A DNA stretch of 35,061 bases from a virus: positions 1 to 35,061 of IMG/VR virus record IMGVR_UViG_3300023440_000013. One strand, 5' to 3'. Below, one piece after another: positions 1,733-35,061 of the stretch. Position numbers and translations under genes: made by a program. Each line of letters begins with the position of its first letter. The first letter of the stretch is position 1. The notes below the pieces were generated by a model. It did no database searches and was not told where the DNA came from. It saw only the letters and a list, made by a program, of their open reading frames with translations.

Positions 1733-3918
1733 ATGGCAGGTCAATTATGGGGAGTAAATACACTTGGCGGGTATATGTACTCTCTCAATCTATCAAGGGA
1801 ATTGCGTTACGCATTGCAACCTTTGGTTAAATTCCGCCAATTTGCTGATGTGCATGATGCATCTCAGCAAGGTAAAAAGAAAGGGGATCAGTTCCATTAA
1901 TATACCGGTGGAATAAAAACCTCACCGTATGCTGGAATATCTGGTTAGGTCATATCAACTAATAAGGTGAAATGGATATGAATACAGACAATCAGCAGGA
2001 AACTGCGAAAGATACAGAAATAGCATGGTTGGCTGGTTTTCTAGATAGTGATGGGAGTGTACAAATGACATTGCCACGATCCACAAAAGCAAATAACCAT
2101 AGAGTAGTAAATTTATGGGTGGACTTTAGCAATGGAGACCCAGCTATTATTGAGAAAGCATCAAATATTCTTGATAAAATGGGTATAGGTTTTCATATAG
2201 CACAAAAGTTTGTAAAGCCTATAAAAAAGGAAGGCGATGGATACTATTTGCCAAGACGTAAAATTTGTCTGGCTATAAAGATAGGTAAAATTGCTAATAT
2301 CAAGAAAATCCTTGAAGCCTTGTTGCCATACTTTGCTGGGCAGAAGGCAGCTTTAAGCAGGATTATAGTAAAGTTCTGTGAAAGACGATTGACGCAAGGA
2401 CGTAAACCATATGTTCAGGAAGACCTTGTAATTGTGCAGGAATTTTTTGAACAAAAAGATGGTCGCTATGCTGCTCAAAATTTAGAGTATCTTGACAGGT
2501 TCCTCATCGACTAAACGTGAGGCTCAATAATGAGATGTTATAGTCAGAGCTTGCTGGAGACAGTAAGAGAGAGAATGAAGAGTCTCTCCGCCCAATATGG
2601 GTCATAAAAGTAACAGAATGTGGAACGTATACTCTGATGTACAAACACAGGGTTCGACGTTGAATGAAACTGATGTTATGCCTGAGACTAATTTTACTAT
2701 TACTCAAGGCACGTTGACGATCACAGAAGCAGGTAACTCTGTTCCTTACACGGGTAAGTTGGACGATTTATCGGAGCATCCGGTAAAAGAGATTATCAAT
2801 AAGGTATTGAAGAATGATGCTAAGAAAGCGTTTGACATTCTTGCACATGCCGAGTTTGATAAAACTCCCTTACGTGTTGCCCCGACAGGTGGTAACTCAG
2901 CAACCTCTGTAACATTGTCAACAGGTGGTTCAACGACAATTATAAATAACATTGCACTTGGTAAAGATCATGTCAAGGCTATTTCAGATATTATGAAAGA
3001 GCGTGATATTCCTCCTTATCAAGGTGATAGTTATTTTTGTATTGCGCATCCGACGACTTTTCGGAAATTCAAAAATGATTTGGAAGCAATCCATCAGTAT
3101 GTAGATGCTGGTTTTGTCAAAATCATGAATGGCGAGATTGGTCGTTATGAGGGAATGAGGTTTATAGAACAAACCAACATTGCCAAGGAAACATGGACAA
3201 ACGGTGCCTCAAACTGGGCATATTTTTTCGGTGCAGATACGGTGGCCGAAGCAATTGCTTGCCCTGAGGAAATCAGAGGTGGATTCGCCTCTTTAGCTGC
3301 GTAAGCAGTTATGGCAACTGGGTTAATTGCTGGGAAATCTAAGTCTTACGTTATTAATTAATAATGGTTTTTAAAGATATGACAATCAGCAGCCAAGCCG
3401 CATTAGCGGACGGTTCATCGACTACCGGGTTACCGGATATGCAGACTCAAGTGAGTCCAAACGCCCAGCCCCCATTATGGGGTGAAGATATAGTCACATC
3501 TGCATGGAAACATGCAGCAGTAAAGCAAGCTTTTGAAGGGAATTATGATATTTCTGATAATGGATGTTGGGAATGGAATAAAGGGAAAAGTCATGGATAT
3601 GGCGAATTGAGAGTTCGTAGTGTATTTGGTGATAAACCTGTATATGCGCATAGGATATCATTTTTATTAAATTATCATCCTATTTCCGATGGACATTACT
3701 GGCATAAATAAAGCAACAGTAAGAGATGTTGTTTTAGGCAAAACTTGGAAAAGCTTGTATAAACGGCATAGAATTAACGACTCTATGTGAAGATTATGAA
3801 AATCCCAACGGATTACGGAAGAAGCCGAGGGGTAGCGTGGTATTATCTAGGTGGTTTTGGCCTGGTGCACACTGATGCTACACAAGCCCGAATCTTGAAA
3901 TGGGATAGCGCAGGGTAA
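1733..3918 (+). CDS. Major capsid protein, N4-gp56 family, interrupted by two group I introns
   Basis: The gene is in three exons: 1733-1897 (55 codons, MAGQLWGVNTLGG to GDQFH), 2621-3280 (220 codons, WNVYSDVQTQG to CPEEIRG) and 3799-3918 (39 codons plus stop, KIPTDYGRSRGVAWYYLGG to LKWDSAG). Joined they give 314 residues with motifs of the N4-gp56 capsid family: GDxFHWNVYSDV across junction 1 and EEIRGKIPTDYGRSRGVAWYYLGGFGL across junction 2, whose continuity supports the exon borders. Each 5' exon ends in T and each intron ends in G, as group I splicing requires. The start has AGGA eight bases upstream. A scaffold gene precedes it and a decoration-like gene follows. Without splicing the frame would stop after 55 codons, so virion production depends on the ribozymes. 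Confidence 0.88.
1898..2620 (+). ncRNA. Group I intron 1 of the capsid gene
   Basis: A 723-base intron. The 5' exon end GTTCCAT (1891-1897) pairs with the internal guide GTGGAAT (1908-1914), putting the required U-G wobble at the splice site. The first exon-2 bases TGG (2621-2623) can pair with CCG at 1905-1907 as P10. Core elements are visible: P-like TGCTGGAAT (1930-1938), Q-like AATCAGCAGG (1990-1999), R-like ending CATCGACTA (2498-2513) and S-like ending TTATAGTC (2532-2544). The intron ends in G at 2620. The endonuclease gene is looped out between Q and R. Splice sites are inferred from pairing plus capsid protein continuity. Confidence 0.88.
1972..2514 (+). CDS. LAGLIDADG homing endonuclease (intron 1)
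   Basis: A 180-residue protein with one LAGLIDADG motif, AWLAGFLDSDGSV, at residues 18-30; the acidic residue needed for metal-dependent cleavage is present. A single motif implies a homodimer cutting a near-palindromic site, expected to be the intronless capsid allele around the FH/WN junction. The length is normal for single-motif enzymes and no frameshift is seen, so it is probably active. AAGGTG lies just upstream of the ATG. Its first codons overlap the intron Q element and its last codons (ending FLID) overlap the R element, so ribozyme and enzyme share sequence. It may also act as a maturase, which cannot be told from sequence. Confidence 0.88.
   Translation: MDMNTDNQQETAKDTEIAWLAGFLDSDGSVQMTLPRSTKANNHRVVNLWVDFSNGDPAIIEKASNILDKMGIGFHIAQKFVKPIKKEGDGYYLPRRKICLAIKIGKIANIKKILEALLPYFAGQKAALSRIIVKFCERRLTQGRKPYVQEDLVIVQEFFEQKDGRYAAQNLEYLDRFLID
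3281..3798 (+). ncRNA. Group I intron 2 of the capsid gene
   Basis: A 518-base intron. The 5' exon end AGAGGT (3275-3280) pairs fully with the guide GCCTCT (3287-3292), again with U-G at the splice site. GGATT (3281-3285) can pair with AATCC (3801-3805) of exon 3 as P10, two bases into the exon. Core: P AATTGCTGGGAAA (3325-3337), Q AATCAGCAGC (3384-3393), R GGTTCATCGACTA (3412-3424) and a near-consensus S AAGATATAGTC (3485-3495). The intron ends in G at 3798. The core is compact and lies before the decayed HNH gene, in contrast to intron 1. Confidence 0.88.
3500..3790 (+). pseudogene. Decayed HNH homing endonuclease (intron 2)
   Basis: The first part reads (to 3711) DNGCWEWNKGKSHGYGELRV ... 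YAHRISFLLNYHPISDG, the start of an HNH_3-type intron endonuclease (CWEWxGxxxxxGYG, AHRxSxxLxxGPIPDG). The next family block, which carries the catalytic His-Asn-His and usually reads like HxCDNPxCVNPxHL, is missing; the frame instead ends HYWHK and stop. In the +1 frame, 3698-3790 reads ITGINKATVRDVVLGKTWKSL, matching the C-terminal helix-turn-helix DNA-binding tail of such enzymes. An internal deletion with a frameshift therefore removed the active site. The frame is open upstream to 3364, but that stretch is ribozyme core and probably not protein. No nuclease activity is expected. Confidence 0.75.
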
Positions 3919-4634: not shown

Positions 4635-4903
4635 ATCATAAAATGAAGATGGATTATGATGGTGACTACGACAATAGTTCCATGCAATCAGGTATGAGCA
4701 AGAAAGAATATGGTCGATATGAAAGCATGGGTGAGAACTTTGATGTTCGTGGCGATATGAGGGCTATTCCAGAAACTGGCGCGTCTTATTCCGGTGATTA
4801 TGAAAAATCTCTGGGTGATGCCAAGCGTTCTGACGTTATGACAGGTTTTTATGGTAAGTCTAAAATCACAAAATATACTGGGATCGACGATGGTTTTGCT
4901 TGA
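4631..4903 (+). CDS. Small hypothetical protein (90 aa), Tyr/Met/Asp-rich
   Basis: The protein is hydrophilic, rich in Asp, Tyr, Gly, Ser and Met (MNHKMKMDYDGDYDNSSMQS), and looks largely disordered. It starts in the ATGA overlap with the previous stop and overlaps the next start by 14 bases, so it sits in a tightly coupled cluster of small genes between capsid and adaptor. No known domain. A minor virion or assembly role is plausible only from position. Confidence 0.6.
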   Translation: MNHKMKMDYDGDYDNSSMQSGMSKKEYGRYESMGENFDVRGDMRAIPETGASYSGDYEKSLGDAKRSDVMTGFYGKSKITKYTGIDDGFA

Positions 4904-5204
4904 TAAATCAAAGCCTTATGATGAAGTCTTTGGCGAACCAATGCCATATAAATATATCCAGGGTGGACGATATTTTAAGGCCAGCGGTGAGGAATTGGTC
5001 GAGGATATAGCTATAGGCGATAGCGTGCAAATCACATCCCATGTACAGGATGATAATGAAGAAAAAGTTATTGCTGCGCTTAAAACTATAACTGAAGACG
5101 AATTAACATCTACAGGCAAACCAAAAGTTTCAATTGTACGTGAGCGTTCCGGTGTTGAAGTTGACATCAAAACAATCAATCAATTATGGACGCAGCTACA
5201 ATAA
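4890..5204 (+). CDS. Hypothetical protein between head and adaptor genes (104 aa)
   Basis: The frame opens upstream at 4851, but the ATG at 4890 (MVLLDKSKPYDEVFGEP) is preferred because GGGA lies six bases upstream and the earlier part lies inside the preceding gene. It reads PYKYIQGGRYFKASGEELVED then IKTINQLWTQLQ at the C-terminus. No catalytic motif is visible. The small alpha/beta composition and the position before the adaptor gene would fit a head-completion or virion-associated protein. It overlaps the adaptor start by 19 bases. Function not recognised. Confidence 0.65.
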   Translation: MVLLDKSKPYDEVFGEPMPYKYIQGGRYFKASGEELVEDIAIGDSVQITSHVQDDNEEKVIAALKTITEDELTSTGKPKVSIVRERSGVEVDIKTINQLWTQLQ

Positions 5205-5833
5205 TAGTTCGAGCAAGGCAGTGGGTTGACGACAATGAAAACCCACAGTTTGCAACTGATGCAGAATATCTTGTATGGGTTGATGAAGCTGCACAGGAGG
5301 CTTGCCGTCGCGGTCGTTTCTTGATGGCTAAGAAGCAAATATCAGTAGTTGCTAATACATCAACATACAGCCTTCCTTCTGATACAATCCTTGTCAGGAG
5401 AGCAAAGCTATCGAGTGAGATATTACCTTTACAAGAAACCAGCTACTTAACGTTAGACGAAGACGTTAGTGGCTGGGAATCTGAAACAGGTACCCCGCTT
5501 GAATATTTTACAGATATGGAAACAGATAAGATAACTCTGTATCCAACGCCTGACGCTAATAATACATTAGATTTGGTAACTATTACCGAACATCCTGCAA
5601 TTACTCAAACAACCGACACACCATTAATTCCAACTCGATTTCATAATTCATTAGTGCATTGGCTTTGTTATCGCTATTTTCAACGATTTGATGAGGATAC
5701 TAATAACGAACAAAGAGCAGAATATCATCGTTCATTGTTTGTCCATGAATTTGGGGAAAGAAGTTCTGCTAAAGACGAAATATTCCAGTTAAGAAACAGG
5801 CCATTTAATAATTTTGATGGTGGGCCTTACTAA
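5186..5833 (+). CDS. Head-to-tail adaptor protein
   Basis: A 215-residue protein beginning MDAATIIVRARQWVDDNENPQFATDAEYLVWVDEAAQEACRR. A helical N-terminus with a WVDEA segment is typical of phage adaptor proteins that bind under the portal. The middle (YSLPSDTILVRRAKL, ITLYPTPDANNTLDL) has the beta elements common to this group, and the C-terminus (HWLCYRYFQRFDEDTNNEQRAEYHRSLF) has the helix that packs on the portal. It is expected to extend the portal channel and join it to the tail. It overlaps the previous gene by 19 bases and the next by one base (TAATG). The portal gene itself is not in the window. Confidence 0.7.
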   Translation: MDAATIIVRARQWVDDNENPQFATDAEYLVWVDEAAQEACRRGRFLMAKKQISVVANTSTYSLPSDTILVRRAKLSSEILPLQETSYLTLDEDVSGWESETGTPLEYFTDMETDKITLYPTPDANNTLDLVTITEHPAITQTTDTPLIPTRFHNSLVHWLCYRYFQRFDEDTNNEQRAEYHRSLFVHEFGERSSAKDEIFQLRNRPFNNFDGGPY

Positions 5834-6141
5834 TGGTAAATAATGAAATCATAGATGGATTTTCTATTGAGCAATTAGGGGTAGGTGGAATAGCATTCTA
5901 TTGTTTATATGTTCTTATCAGGAATCTTATAAAAAATCAAAACGAAGAAAGAAGGCAATGGATTGAAGCCTATCAGGCGCAAGGTAAAATGCACGATGAA
6001 AGACAGCGGGAAACCAATGCAGTAATAAGAGAATTAACAGCGGTAATGAAAGAATCAAATGCTGTTATGAGAGACGCAAATGCGCGTCGTAGATATTGTG
6101 ATGGAATGAAAAATGGCAAAAATATCGACTTATCCAATTAA
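5833..6141 (+). CDS. Single-TM protein with coiled coil, holin candidate
   Basis: A 102-residue protein with one hydrophobic segment (VGGIAFYCLYVLIRNLI, residues about 16-33), then a long charged helix rich in E, R, Q and N with repeats of the type NAVxRELTAVMKESNAVMRDAN. One membrane span plus a cytoplasmic coiled coil is seen in class III-like holins and in some tail or spanin proteins. It begins in a TAATG overlap with the adaptor stop and overlaps the fibre start by 29 bases. The lytic transglycosylase lies far away on the other strand, so a lysis role is only a guess. Confidence 0.6.
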   Translation: MVNNEIIDGFSIEQLGVGGIAFYCLYVLIRNLIKNQNEERRQWIEAYQAQGKMHDERQRETNAVIRELTAVMKESNAVMRDANARRRYCDGMKNGKNIDLSN

Positions 6142-32306: not shown

Positions 32307-32753
32307 CTATGTAAGTTTTTTTGTTGCAAATGCGCTTAATGCTGCAATTTTACCTAATTGTTCGTCACGATAACGAATATCATCATTATCAATCATTTTA
32401 ATATTGATATTTAATAACGATAATTTTGTATCTCTCATTATTTTATTAAATTTTTTTGAACAAGAATTTATTGTTTCTGATGCCTGTTTTCGAGGCATTA
32501 CTATTCTGTAACCAGTCCCTCTCATATTAACAAGATACATTTTATGGTCAATTAATAATATTTTTTTCAATTCATCCATGTGATTTAGAAACCTAAATGC
32601 AATTGAATCATAATTCTTTTTATTTGAAAACGCAGGAAATTTAATACCAAATTGTTTATATAGCCATTCGGTTGGGATTACATCACCGTAATCAAAATTT
32701 TTAACGACTTGGTTTGTAACTTTTTTTACTGGATTTTCGTTAATATCTCTCAT
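32307..32753 (-). CDS. Hypothetical early protein, winged-helix-like (148 aa)
   Basis: A basic protein, MRDINENPVKKVTNQVVKNF to the C-terminus LSAFATKKLT. The part DYGDVIPTEWLYKQFGIKFP then YLVNMRGTGYRIVMPRKQ (residues about 22-90) resembles a winged helix: helices followed by a strand-turn with RGTGYR. It could bind DNA. AGG precedes the ATG. It is the first gene after repeat block A and would be driven by the promoter inside it. No named family. Confidence 0.6.
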   Translation of the reverse strand: MRDINENPVKKVTNQVVKNFDYGDVIPTEWLYKQFGIKFPAFSNKKNYDSIAFRFLNHMDELKKILLIDHKMYLVNMRGTGYRIVMPRKQASETINSCSKKFNKIMRDTKLSLLNINIKMIDNDDIRYRDEQLGKIAALSAFATKKLT

Positions 32754-32781
32754 TTTTAAACCTATTTTAGTTAAAATCTAT

Positions 32782-32961
32782 GCTACGCTATGCTGTGCTT
32801 TGCTAAGCTACGCTGTACTACGCTATGCTCCGCTATGCTATGATGATATTTCACCGGAAAAGCCACTGTTAAATGGCCAATCCGCTGAATAATCAGCCTG
32901 TGCTTTGCTGGGCTGTGCTACGCTTTGCTTTGCTAGGCTGCGCTGTGCTGCGCTGTGCTAG
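32782..32961 (-). repeat. Pentanucleotide array block A (12 + spacer + 12 units)
   Basis: Two arrays of a 5-bp unit GCTNN (NNAGC on the minus strand): 32782-32841, twelve units with one variant (ACTAC), and 32902-32961, twelve exact units. They flank a 60-bp spacer (32842-32901), itself a multiple of five, so all three parts keep one 5-bp register over 180 bp. The spacer contains a hairpin GCTGA/TCAGC (32884-32897) and an inverted repeat GCCA/TGGC (32862-32877). The segment 32793-32909 (117 bp) is identical to 33573-33689. The array runs into the TAG stop of the 32958 gene. No known element matches. Confidence 0.9.
32843..32872 (-). promoter_or_regulatory. Promoter in spacer of block A
   Basis: On the minus strand TTAACA (32872-32867), 18-bp spacing, TATCAT (32848-32843). 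Each box differs from the sigma-70 consensus by one base. Transcription would start near 32836, inside the array, giving the 32753 gene a 5' leader made of NNAGC units. Confidence 0.5.
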
Positions 32962-33548
32962 GTCAAAATCTCTGCTACAAACCTACCAAACATGCCATTT
33001 TTAGCTGGTCTGAATCCACCAAGACCGACATAAGAACCTGCCGCATTAAAATAATCCAAAATCCATTCTTCTTGACAAATATCTTCGTCAAATGCCGTTT
33101 CAAAGACTAACGACCATTCAGTGAATTTCGGTCTATAGCACATCACTTTTGCGCGTGACACGACAACAGACCGTTTATCCAAATAATTACCGCTCTCCCA
33201 TAATTGCTCCGGTGTCAAATCATCACCGTAGTCAAGTTTAATCTCACTATCCATGATAAACACGCCTTTTCGTATCTTGTCTCCATTACGTGTTAATTTC
33301 GCGCCTTCCTCTAGACATTTCTTTATATTGATACCTGGAACATATACGCCGGTTTCCTCAGAAAAATAAACAGAATTGATATATTGCGATTTTGCAATCT
33401 GAACAATAATATCTTCTGTTTTTGCCTTTCCGCGTACACTGGTGAGTTTTTTGTGTTCAATTGTTGCTGGGTCAAGTGGGTCGGCAAGTCGGTCACATAC
33501 TAAAAGAATCGGTGATGTTCCAGTTAATTTAATTTTTGTAATTTTCAT
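32958..33548 (-). CDS. Conserved phage protein of unknown function (196 aa)
   Basis: The protein reads MKITKIKLTGTSPILLVCDRLADPLDP, then YVPGINIKKCLEEGAKLTR, then KRSVVVSRAKVMCYRPKFTEWSLVFE, ending SYVGLGGFRPAKNGMFGRFVAEIL. This order (PLL-x-x-x-RxAxPLDP, IPGxNIxxxLxxGAK, RSVVVxRAxVxxxRPxFxxW, VGLGxxRPxxxGxFGRF) is a recurring phage family with a mixed alpha/beta fold and Gly-rich end similar in style to RAMP folds. Function is unknown. It lies between the two repeat blocks A and B and is preceded by block B. AGGT lies upstream of the ATG. Confidence 0.7.
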   Translation of the reverse strand: MKITKIKLTGTSPILLVCDRLADPLDPATIEHKKLTSVRGKAKTEDIIVQIAKSQYINSVYFSEETGVYVPGINIKKCLEEGAKLTRNGDKIRKGVFIMDSEIKLDYGDDLTPEQLWESGNYLDKRSVVVSRAKVMCYRPKFTEWSLVFETAFDEDICQEEWILDYFNAAGSYVGLGGFRPAKNGMFGRFVAEILT

Positions 33549-33576
33549 TTTTGTACCTATTAAGTTAAAAATCTGT

Positions 33577-33741
33577 GCTTTGCTAAGCTACGCTGTACTA
33601 CGCTATGCTCCGCTATGCTATGATGATATTTCACCGGAAAAGCCACTGTTAAATGGCCAATCCGCTGAATAATCAGCCTGTGCTTTGCTAAGCTACGCTT
33701 TGCTTTGCTTTGCTAAGCTGAGCTAGGTTCTGCTAAGCTGT
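33577..33741 (-). repeat. Pentanucleotide array block B (9 + spacer + 12 units)
   Basis: The second copy of the repeat element, exactly 780 bp from block A. Units GCTNN at 33577-33621 (nine units, one ACTAC) and 33682-33741 (twelve units, one variant GTTCT) flank a 60-bp spacer (33622-33681) identical to that in block A. The 117-bp identical core is 33573-33689; outside it the units differ between blocks in their two free bases while the GCT stays fixed. It lies directly upstream of the 33548 gene and next to the ribbon-helix-helix gene. Confidence 0.9.
33623..33652 (-). promoter_or_regulatory. Promoter in spacer of block B
   Basis: Same boxes as block A: TTAACA, 18 bp, TATCAT on the minus strand. 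It would transcribe the 33548 gene leftward with a leader made of the NNAGC array. Confidence 0.5.
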
Positions 33742-33769
33742 GTACATCAAACTACAAATCAAGTATAAT
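33741..33769 (+). promoter_or_regulatory. Promoter of the RHH gene
   Basis: TGTACA (33741-33746), 17-bp spacer, perfect TATAAT (33764-33769). The start would lie near 33776, about 30 bases before the RHH ATG. The -35 box begins on the last base of array B. Confidence 0.55.
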
Positions 33770-33807
33770 GTAATTAATCCTTTAACGCAATAATTTTGGT
33801 GAAAACA

Positions 33808-33954
33808 ATGAAAGAAAAAAAAATAGTAATGAGTGTTCGAGTTAGCAAAGAATTACATAACGCATTGAAAGAACAAATAAAAATAGAAAACAGAACGCTC
33901 AGCAATCTAATCGAAACAATTTTAAAAAATTACATTGTTGATAGTAAAATTTGA
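33808..33954 (+). CDS. Ribbon-helix-helix (Arc/CopG-like) regulator (48 aa)
   Basis: A 48-residue protein: a short strand (KKIVMSVRVSKELH), helix A (ALKEQIKIEN), turn (RTLSN) and helix B (LIETILKNYI). VRVSKEL-x-x-A-L-K followed by (R/S)TxSNLIE is the normal RHH pattern; the strand residues of a dimer insert into the major groove. Such proteins repress their own and nearby promoters. GGTG lies a few bases before the ATG. It lies next to repeat block B, so the array or the spacer could be its target, which is speculation. Confidence 0.75.
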   Translation: MKEKKIVMSVRVSKELHNALKEQIKIENRTLSNLIETILKNYIVDSKI

Positions 33955-33980
33955 CATGCCTGGTTTTTAATTGCTAAAAT
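33951..33980 (+). promoter_or_regulatory. Strong promoter of the candidate small RNA
   Basis: Perfect TTGACA (33951-33956), 18-bp spacer, TAAAAT (33975-33980). The -35 box overlaps the RHH stop codon. The same GCTAAAATA extended -10 is seen at the Cro-like gene. Confidence 0.65.
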
Positions 33981-33986
33981 ACAAGA

Positions 33987-34090
33987 AAGTTAAGCACTGC
34001 ATGAGAAAAAGAGTTTGCCTATGCTGTTATCTTATGTGGTGCGCTTATCTTCCTACCTCTCACTAGCCCGTTCAATCGGGCTTTTTTTTG
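33987..34090 (+). ncRNA. Candidate small RNA (~104 nt)
   Basis: A strong promoter ends at 33980 and a strong intrinsic terminator ends near 34090, with only a 21-codon Cys-rich frame (34001-34066) between them that lacks a good ribosome site. The RNA can fold a stem AAGC/GCTT plus ACTGCAT/ATGTGGT with a two-base bulge, leaving a pyrimidine-rich stretch CTTCCTACCTCTC just before the terminator. That stretch is complementary to Shine-Dalgarno-like purine runs. It could be an antisense regulator or leader RNA. No known family is recognised. Confidence 0.5.
34065..34090 (+). terminator. Intrinsic terminator
   Basis: AGCCCG (34065-34070) pairs perfectly with CGGGCT (34077-34082), 6-nt loop TTCAAT, followed by a run of eight T. 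It ends the candidate small RNA and any read-through from the RHH gene. Confidence 0.9.
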
Positions 34091-34093
34091 TCT

Positions 34094-34192
34094 ATGAAAA
34101 AGAACCCAAAGAAAAACCTAGTCCTGGCATTTGAAAATCAATGGTTCTGGGATGGCAATCGTAACTGTGAAAAATTTGACAAAATAAATTAA
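34094..34192 (+). CDS. Possible small basic protein (32 aa)
   Basis: MKKNPKKNLVLAFENQWFWDGN and on to FDKIN. It starts four bases after the T-run of a strong terminator and has no ribosome site, so expression is doubtful; the promoter at 34176 begins inside it. Recorded for completeness. Confidence 0.25.
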   Translation: MKKNPKKNLVLAFENQWFWDGNRNCEKFDKIN

Positions 34193-34204
34193 TTGTATTA
34201 TGAT
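34176..34204 (+). promoter_or_regulatory. Strong promoter upstream of interlocked repeats
   Basis: Perfect TTGACA (34176-34181), 17-bp spacer, TATGAT (34199-34204). Start expected near 34211, so the RNA would begin just before the inverted repeats at 34230. Confidence 0.65.
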
Positions 34205-34229
34205 GATTTCCGGTTGTTAGAAAAGCCAA

Positions 34230-34323
34230 CGACTGCTGGCGCGGTTATATATAGTAAGAAACCTTAATAATCGAGTGGGGTCTGCTATACGCCCGCGCCA
34301 GCAGTCGATTATTAAGGTTTCTT
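34230..34323 (+). repeat. Two interlocked perfect inverted repeats
   Basis: Repeat 1: CGACTGCTGGCGCGG (34230-34244) with its exact complement at 34293-34307 (15 bp). Repeat 2: a 19-bp arm starting AAGAAACC (34256-34274) with its exact complement at 34305-34323. The arms alternate (1-2-1'-2') and the two right arms share TCG at 34305-34307, so both hairpins cannot fully form at once. A strong promoter lies just upstream. A small hairpin GTTG/CAAC (34213-34216 with 34227-34230) precedes them. Confidence 0.85.
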
Positions 34324-34419
34324 TGTACCTAAGGTCCGTGGCACCTTTGAGTTGATGGCCAGCAAGGGGCTGAACCACAAAAAACTTTGCATCCCGTTAG
34401 GCATGGGATAAATGGATTT

Positions 34420-34572
34420 ATGAAGCTAGTGGAAGAGTTGTTAGCAATATTGGGGCTATCCACGAATACCATACCGGTAAGCCATCTTCGAGATGAGCGG
34501 GGGCAGATCCTAAAAAATCCGGCGGACTGGCTGAAGCGTGAAGTCCGAGGGCGCATACACACTACGGGGTGA
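34420..34572 (+). CDS. Doubtful small protein (50 aa)
   Basis: MKLVEELLAILGLSTNTIPV ... NPADWLKREVRGRIHTTG. The segment NPADWLKREVRGR resembles helices of DNA-binding or plasmid replication proteins, but the match is too short to name. The frame stays open upstream to about 34351 without an ATG. No convincing ribosome site. It may be a remnant of a larger gene or coincidental in a structured RNA. Confidence 0.3.
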   Translation: MKLVEELLAILGLSTNTIPVSHLRDERGQILKNPADWLKREVRGRIHTTG

Positions 34573-34778
34573 TTGTATGGCATCACGCTACCCGGTTGCG
34601 GGTCCCGAAAACGCAGCAGGTAATGAGCCTTCCAAATCCTCCTCTTTACTGGGGTAGGGGGCTTTTACCCGAAAACAATGTATATATGCCATATTAAAAA
34701 ATATCATTGCCTGGCATAGTGATGCGGAATAGCATTGCTGGAACCTATATACTTCAAAATATCATCTATACAGTGCAT

Positions 34779-34871
34779 GAGAAGAATCATTTTTTGAATC
34801 CGATTCAAGCACTATTCTCACTAACAACAGTTATCTGTGTAATTAATCAATTGTTCATTAGTACGAACAAC
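34779..34871. promoter_or_regulatory. Palindromic operator-like sites
   Basis: TTGAATC-C-GATTCAA (34794-34808) is a near-perfect palindrome, and TTGTTC and GAACAA (34852-34871, 8-bp centre) form another. A wider GAGAA/TTCTC pair surrounds the first. They lie 90-180 bases upstream of the last gene start, where a regulatory region is expected. Confidence 0.45.
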
Positions 34872-34959
34872 ATATAACTCAAGAAAAATGATTAATCCTC
34901 CCATGTACAGGACTTAAACAATCTGTCGTTTTAGATTATTTATAATTGATTGAGGATTT

Positions 34960-35061
34960 ATGATGGAAATACAATTGATGCAAAAAAGTAGTTGGTCTAT
35001 CATGAATCTGTTGTTATGCTTGGAAAAAGAGATTATGCAACGGGTAAGGCGTTGGACAGCA
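34960..35061 (+). CDS. Unknown protein, 5' part only
   Basis: Twin ATGs at 34960 and 34963 follow GAGG (34952-34955), and TATAAT at 34941-34946 gives a plausible promoter with a short leader. The 34 visible residues (MMEIQLMQKSSWSIMNLLLC ...) have no recognised motif and the frame runs off the window. Real by its ribosome site and upstream palindromes, but function cannot be said. Confidence 0.5.
   Translation, partial: MMEIQLMQKSSWSIMNLLLCLEKEIMQRVRRWTA

Follow-up and report, generated by a model that had tools for sequence, protein, structure and literature searches.

The window, the whole 35,061-nucleotide stretch of viral DNA analyzed here, carries four pentanucleotide repeat arrays beside two minus-strand genes, vipr and a homolog of vap1 (Vipr-accessory protein), together with a small divergent gene for an Arc/RHH-like protein (Table 1). 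The window Vipr is 36% identical to the SUSP1 Vipr over its full length, and a profile of its family retrieved PDB entry 36pp, 'SUSP1 Vipr protein', with E = 1.4e-50. Its AlphaFold2 model had a pLDDT of 94, and the best PDB matches were Csm3/Cas7 subunits. The Vap1 homolog shares 25% identity with ALH47068.1 of SUSP1 (E = 9e-15), and a vap1-like gene was found beside vipr on the same strand in 98 of 123 loci. In SUSP1, both genes were assigned by position and the described layout, and vipr also by the PDB entry. The window Vipr had no cas match in PADLOC or Pfam, and no CRISPR direct repeats with unique spacers were found in the window. The divergent gene, a possible regulator, gave weak RHH/Arc matches.

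Table 1. Features of the vipr locus in the window. NN orders are given on the minus strand; vrRNAs are putative.
Feature	Position	Strand	Description
vap1 homolog	32307..32753	-	148 aa, phrog_5926
Array 1	32780..32841	-	12 units, 11 exact (plus strand 32782-32839); without own tail; directly 5' of vap gene; NN order AT AT GG AT GT AC GT TT AA AC AT GT AT
Tail of vrRNA 2	32842..32899	-	identical to tail of vrRNA 1; covariance-model match
Array 2, guide tract of vrRNA 2	32900..32963	-	(AGCNN) x12, all exact (plus strand 32902-32959); NN order (CT) AC GC AC GC CT AA AA GT AC CC AA AC
vrRNA 2 (array and tail)	32963-32842	-	
vipr	32958..33548	-	196 aa, RAMP fold, phrog_4652; G-loop VGLGGFRP, residues 174-181
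Array 3	33577..33621	-	9 units, 8 exact (plus strand 33577-33619); without own tail; directly 5' of vipr start; NN order equals first 9 units of array 1
Tail of vrRNA 1	33622..33679	-	covariance model, 48.3 bits
Array 4, guide tract of vrRNA 1	33680..33743	-	(AGCNN) x12, 11 exact (plus strand 33682-33739); NN order (AC) TT AG CT TC TT AA AA AA GT TT AA AC
vrRNA 1 (array and tail)	33743-33622	-	
Candidate promoter of vrRNA/vipr transcript	33762..33790	-	TTGCGT-17-TATACT, read from sequence
Arc/RHH-like small DNA-binding protein gene	33808..33954	+	divergent

On the plus strand, the four arrays read as GCTNN, with GCT in register every five bases. The preliminary description had reported these arrays and a duplication of the block that contains them, and both proved real. 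A 59-base spacer core (32840-32898 and 33620-33678) is identical between the two blocks, and the longest identity at an offset of 780 is exactly 117 bp, from 32793. The longest exact run comprised 12 units, while the maximum in 1000 first-order (dinucleotide) resamplings of the region was 3, and a reversed-pattern control returned zero arrays in the window. Since the genes adjoining the arrays, apart from the small divergent RHH gene, lie on the minus strand, the transcribed unit is AGCNN and not GCTNN. The array pattern described earlier therefore stands, but its upstream and downstream directions were inverted. The earlier link to a gene between the blocks was likewise real; this gene, vipr, ends at 32958. 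Its stop codon TAG is overlapped by array 2, lying inside the first unit (CTAGC).

VIPR is described in a 2026 preprint (PMC13142463), the main text of which presents it as a phage-borne system comprising the RAMP protein Vipr and vrRNAs. Each of the 9-16 pentanucleotide repeats in a vrRNA joins a conserved trinucleotide, GGY 'or a related consensus', to a hypervariable NN, and an invariable structured tail lies 3' of the repeats. The window protein fits the Vipr criteria of a RAMP homolog with a single domain, a G-loop, and a mass of ~20 kDa. According to the same text, the NN pairs recognize DNA with one base skipped per pair, and VIPR is proposed as a possible CRISPR forerunner with a non-contiguous guide code. 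The 9-12 units per array in the window lie within the described range. The window trinucleotide is AGC or AGT, which conforms to RGY but not to GGY and places AGY at the edge of the definition given in the preprint's text.

Like the window locus, the type II VIPR of Escherichia phage SUSP1 (Vipr ALH47069.1, Vap1 ALH47068.1; PDB 36pp) is phage-borne and combines Vipr and Vap1 homologs on one strand with pentanucleotide arrays carrying free NN on the gene strand and a 3' tail. It differs in its repeats (GGT/NN vs AGC/NN), in a G-loop residue that is acidic (D177) where the window has glycine, and in its layout, in which the vipr/vap1 pair is preceded by one vrRNA and followed by three. Pseudomonas phage vB_Pae_LESphi2 (OQ594955), which encodes the annotated phage Vipr closest to that of the window (40%), shares with it a homologous tail family and a Vap1-like gene, but has GGC/NN repeats and an acidic G-loop residue. 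The Csm3/Cas7 RAMPs of type III CRISPR resemble Vipr in their RAMP-domain fold and expected polymerization on a guide RNA, whereas the window has no CRISPR repeats and no other cas genes; moreover, VIPR has a 5-nt instead of a 6-nt period and a non-contiguous guide.

Arrays 4 and 2 are each followed by the tail. A covariance model built from 16 seed sequences, with the window tail among them, found exactly the two expected tails in the window at significant E-values and none after arrays 3 and 1. The segment 3' of arrays 4 and 2 also aligned with that 3' of the GGC arrays of LESphi2 and with the corresponding segments of freshwater relatives. The minus strand of the tail folded with -24.0 kcal/mol (z -4.8) compared with -16.6 for the plus strand, and the tail of a relative (L013) gave -16.8 vs -7.7 kcal/mol. 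The plus strand was discarded as the RNA strand by folding energy and by pairing, with G.U pairs on the minus strand only. The two-helix core had 69 double-change cells, compared with 25.7 ± 3.9 in shuffled alignments and at most 23 with the partners slid; as an alternative long helix scored equally, the two-helix fold is one of two candidates, and a pseudoknot may form part of the structure.

Across the collected loci, the covariance model gave 74 tail matches distributed over 45 loci at E-values up to 1. Every match was in the orientation of vipr, many came from GGY systems outside the seed, and seven microsatellite control loci gave none. The window tail and the tails of GGY-type systems form one RNA family. 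SUSP1 was not matched by the model, so its tail differs. A search of 32700-35061 against Rfam returned no described RNA family, and a hammerhead ribozyme between the arrays, which was considered as a candidate, had no Rfam match. Separately, the segment 34190-34340 contains two long inverted repeats that interleave (34256-34277/34302-34323 and 34230-34251/34286-34307), together with a tail-like stretch near 34198 (ATGATGATTTCCGG...AAAAGCC). This stretch was rejected as a third vrRNA tail, as it matched neither the tail model nor Rfam.

A search for GCTNN arrays, of the kind proposed in the preliminary description, was run on viral and bacterial sequences with eight exact units and returned at least 118 viral and at least 118 bacterial stretches. 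Among the matches listed, nearly all bacterial stretches were plain microsatellites, while NN was free in many viral contigs, which often had several arrays with a conserved segment of about 60 nt between them. In this motif-only search, a Vipr homolog was present in 38 of 51 degenerate-array viral loci but in only 1 of 67 microsatellite loci among the matches listed (Fisher p ~1e-18, a value that includes near-identical relatives, so that the effective n is smaller). In 39 of 40 loci among the matches listed, counting the window and one Dechloromonas contig, the arrays read AGCNN in the direction of vipr. A single-protein search of viral contigs with the window Vipr gave no match, but a later protein-only search with an alignment yielded 80 further Vipr loci, most of them with RGY/NN arrays on the sense strand. 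Direct DNA similarity to the window was not found in phages, and a Vipr homolog was present in 15 of 398 Pseudomonadota genomes.

Several of these loci had features of their own. The Dechloromonas contig (L231, ~4850-6123), probably a prophage, encodes a Vipr 50% identical to that of the window and a Vap1 homolog, with two AGC arrays and a tail. Uninterrupted AGCNN arrays of 27-69 units, far above the described 9-16, were seen in L021 (8677-9019), L033 (3296-3513), L080, L058, L053, and L042, mostly beside Vipr genes, although no Vipr was seen in L033 and L080; they are perhaps overlapping guides. In L018 (6516-7087) and L052 (5489-5937), the arrays are mostly split by a 4-base GCCT step instead of a tail, representing another architecture, and in L267 (~1675-2940) a Vipr related to that of the window is preceded by a long series of some ten tails, the RGY/TGY repeats of which are highly degenerate. 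GGY arrays also lie near VIPR-like loci of LESphi2 (OQ594955), LittleE (NC_042322), and the Gordonia phages Trine, UmaThurman, Ecliptus, and MakoManhole, and the VIPR-like genes in these records are annotated only as 'hypothetical proteins'.

The locus is a real VIPR of an AGC-reading lineage. The arrays are very probably guide tracts of the vrRNAs of a type-II-like VIPR with a SUSP1-like Vipr and Vap1, including the proposed guided silencing, and by homology the NN pairs would be guide information and not filler. Transcription of the minus strand most likely begins at about 33755, and the transcript would be the source of vrRNAs 1 and 2 as well as of the vipr and vap messages. Each vrRNA would comprise about 12 AGCNN units and, at its 3' end, a structured tail of about 58 nt. 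Vipr, a single-domain RAMP protein with the Cas7/Csm3 fold, would polymerize on the repeat, and each subunit would cover one pentanucleotide, gripping AGC and exposing NN. Again by homology, these pairs would recognize double-stranded DNA with one base skipped per pair, and the Vipr-guide complex, helped by Vap1, would repress a competing phage or mobile element at the level of transcription. Three features of the locus argue against this reading. Arrays 1 and 3 have no tail and are not explained by the described form of vrRNAs, the AGY repeats are a marginal fit to the GGY motif of the preprint, and the plausible promoter is weak, with a -35 element that matches at 3 of 6 positions and was absent from a promoter scan requiring 4 of 6.

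Arrays 3 and 1, which lack tails and immediately precede the start codons of vipr and vap, could act either as overlapping guides or as leaders for autoregulation. The vipr gene is wedged between two array-tail-array blocks, so the tail-less arrays may regulate their own operon. Specifically, Vipr could polymerize upstream of the vipr and vap starts and repress translation, which would be compatible with a guide role of arrays 4 and 2. The position of the two arrays, the absence of a covariance-model tail after them, and their common NN order over nine units, from which the tailed arrays differ, all fit such cis leaders, as do arrays without a full tail adjoining vipr in L013, L014, L023, L026, L032, L050, and L054. 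However, in several relatives the vipr-proximal array is followed by a short hairpin that might take the place of a tail, and a recent duplication of the block would by itself account for the NN identity. The text of the preprint (PMC13142463) also mentions staggered arrays whose vrRNAs overlap, and arrays 3 and 1 could be of this type. We consider cis leaders rather unlikely, though by no means negligible.

The other explanations are far less probable than cis leaders. A landing platform at the DNA level, iteron- or centromere-like and serving replication start, partition, or silencing, would suit the regular spacing, and the divergent Arc-like gene next door would offer a binder. The arrays, however, go with Vipr genes and keep to a single strand, and the conserved part covaries and base-pairs as an RNA would, G.U pairs occurring in this strand only, so the platform proposed in the preliminary description is very improbable. 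No link between the RHH gene and the arrays was shown, and neither the proposed binding of the arrays by the RHH protein nor a recombination cassette was supported. Genome contigs often contain plain GCTNN microsatellites, yet free NN at fixed spacing recurs beside the same gene family in many viral contigs that are unrelated and stem from different assemblies, which leaves microsatellite expansion or an assembly artefact with hardly any probability. The array was rightly said at the outset to be no microsatellite, terminator, or CRISPR. The suggested selection on the trinucleotide and its spacing was also upheld, and a structured 5' leader, one of the roles put forward there, was close. TRAP targets comprise 11 NAG repeats separated by two or three bases, and the five-nucleotide period with about 11 units resembles them. 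The array-linked protein is the RAMP-fold Vipr, and the idea of a TRAP-like RNA-binding ring was dropped because of this identification and is now scarcely credible; a literature search on phage TRAP and on the repeat motif itself found nothing.

By array type, the Vipr lineages divide into AGY and GGY. The window is placed in a ten-member AGY clade nested in the GGY (SUSP1/LESphi2) group. Residue 178 lies in the G-loop GLG[G]FRP, being G178 in the window and D177 in SUSP1. In the first set, it was D or E in all 44 GGY Viprs, and each of the 32 AGY Viprs in which this position was present had G, A, N, S, or T. For loci in which the first detector found no array, the type was predicted from residue 178 before a relaxed detector was applied. 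The loci with G178 gave AGY (L257 and L267, the latter weak) and those with D/E gave GGY, while one truncated locus gave nothing. A further 27 Vipr loci from phages, plasmids, and genomes all had D/E, and their identifiable arrays were GGY and never AGY on the sense strand, a few having no or marginal arrays. In total, residue 178 was acidic (D/E) in 73/73 GGY and non-acidic in 34/34 AGY systems. On a tree built without column 178, both traits changed five times, the five switches being concordant, and they agreed in all 107 rows. Five independent pairs were obtained on the best tree, but only two of them, both concordant, lay on well-supported branches, so that a sign test had no power. Columns 17, 55, and 137 tracked the repeat type less well than 178. 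Since the distant AGY loci came from a GCT search, the dialect frequencies are biased.

New here are the division of Vipr lineages into AGY and GGY and its correlation with residue 178, and from this correlation we infer that the residue directly reads the first base of the repeat. It is somewhat more probable than its opposite that one G-loop residue sets repeat base 1, an acidic residue giving G (GGY, and GCY in L065) and a small or neutral one giving A (AGY), that the window lineage switched from GGY to AGY, and that AGY and GGY systems could coexist without mixing guides. L065 (1338-1729) is the only Vipr locus whose arrays are GCTNN (GCY) on the sense strand, in a position downstream of vipr. 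The G-loop residue of this Vipr is E, and GCY with E fits an acidic residue paired with G at base 1. How Vipr reads the constant part of the repeat is not stated in the main text of the preprint (PMC13142463), and the natural AGY and GGY lineages with their tracking residue offer a one-mutation test of recognition and a route to orthogonal VIPRs. The dinucleotide TA occurred among the NN pairs at 0.66 of expectation in AGY and 0.93 in GGY systems. Codon-derived guides, which would fit TA depletion, were not adopted as an explanation, the depletion being weaker in GGY.

Decoded guides were also compared with possible targets. Within the window itself, the best self-match was 18/26, and scans of viral contigs with the window guides gave 0-3 partial matches that extended to at most 21/26. 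Viral scans with conserved guides of relatives were similar, with no convincing target, the Dechloromonas guides had no target in 250 genomes of its order, and one-base skips showed no clear excess in 2 Mb of loci. All of these comparisons thus either were empty or stayed at the level of chance. Because no DNA target was found for the window guides, guided silencing in the window phage is proposed from homology. The lack of a convincing target in the self, viral, and genome scans is a further point against the VIPR reading; since the collections were scanned for exact sub-patterns only, these null searches do not count against guided targeting.

The major capsid protein of the window is closest to those of Vibrio phages (59%), while Vibrio phages are absent among the organism names of Vipr-bearing phage records; the VIPR thus looks like cargo in this phage. 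Mobile elements are densely packed in the major capsid region (1733-3711). The ORF at 1972-2514 encodes an HNH homing endonuclease, a group I intron (3271-3517; Rfam RF00028, 89.6 bits) was found at the end of the capsid ORF, and the ORF after the intron (3364-3711) appears HNH-like by eye.
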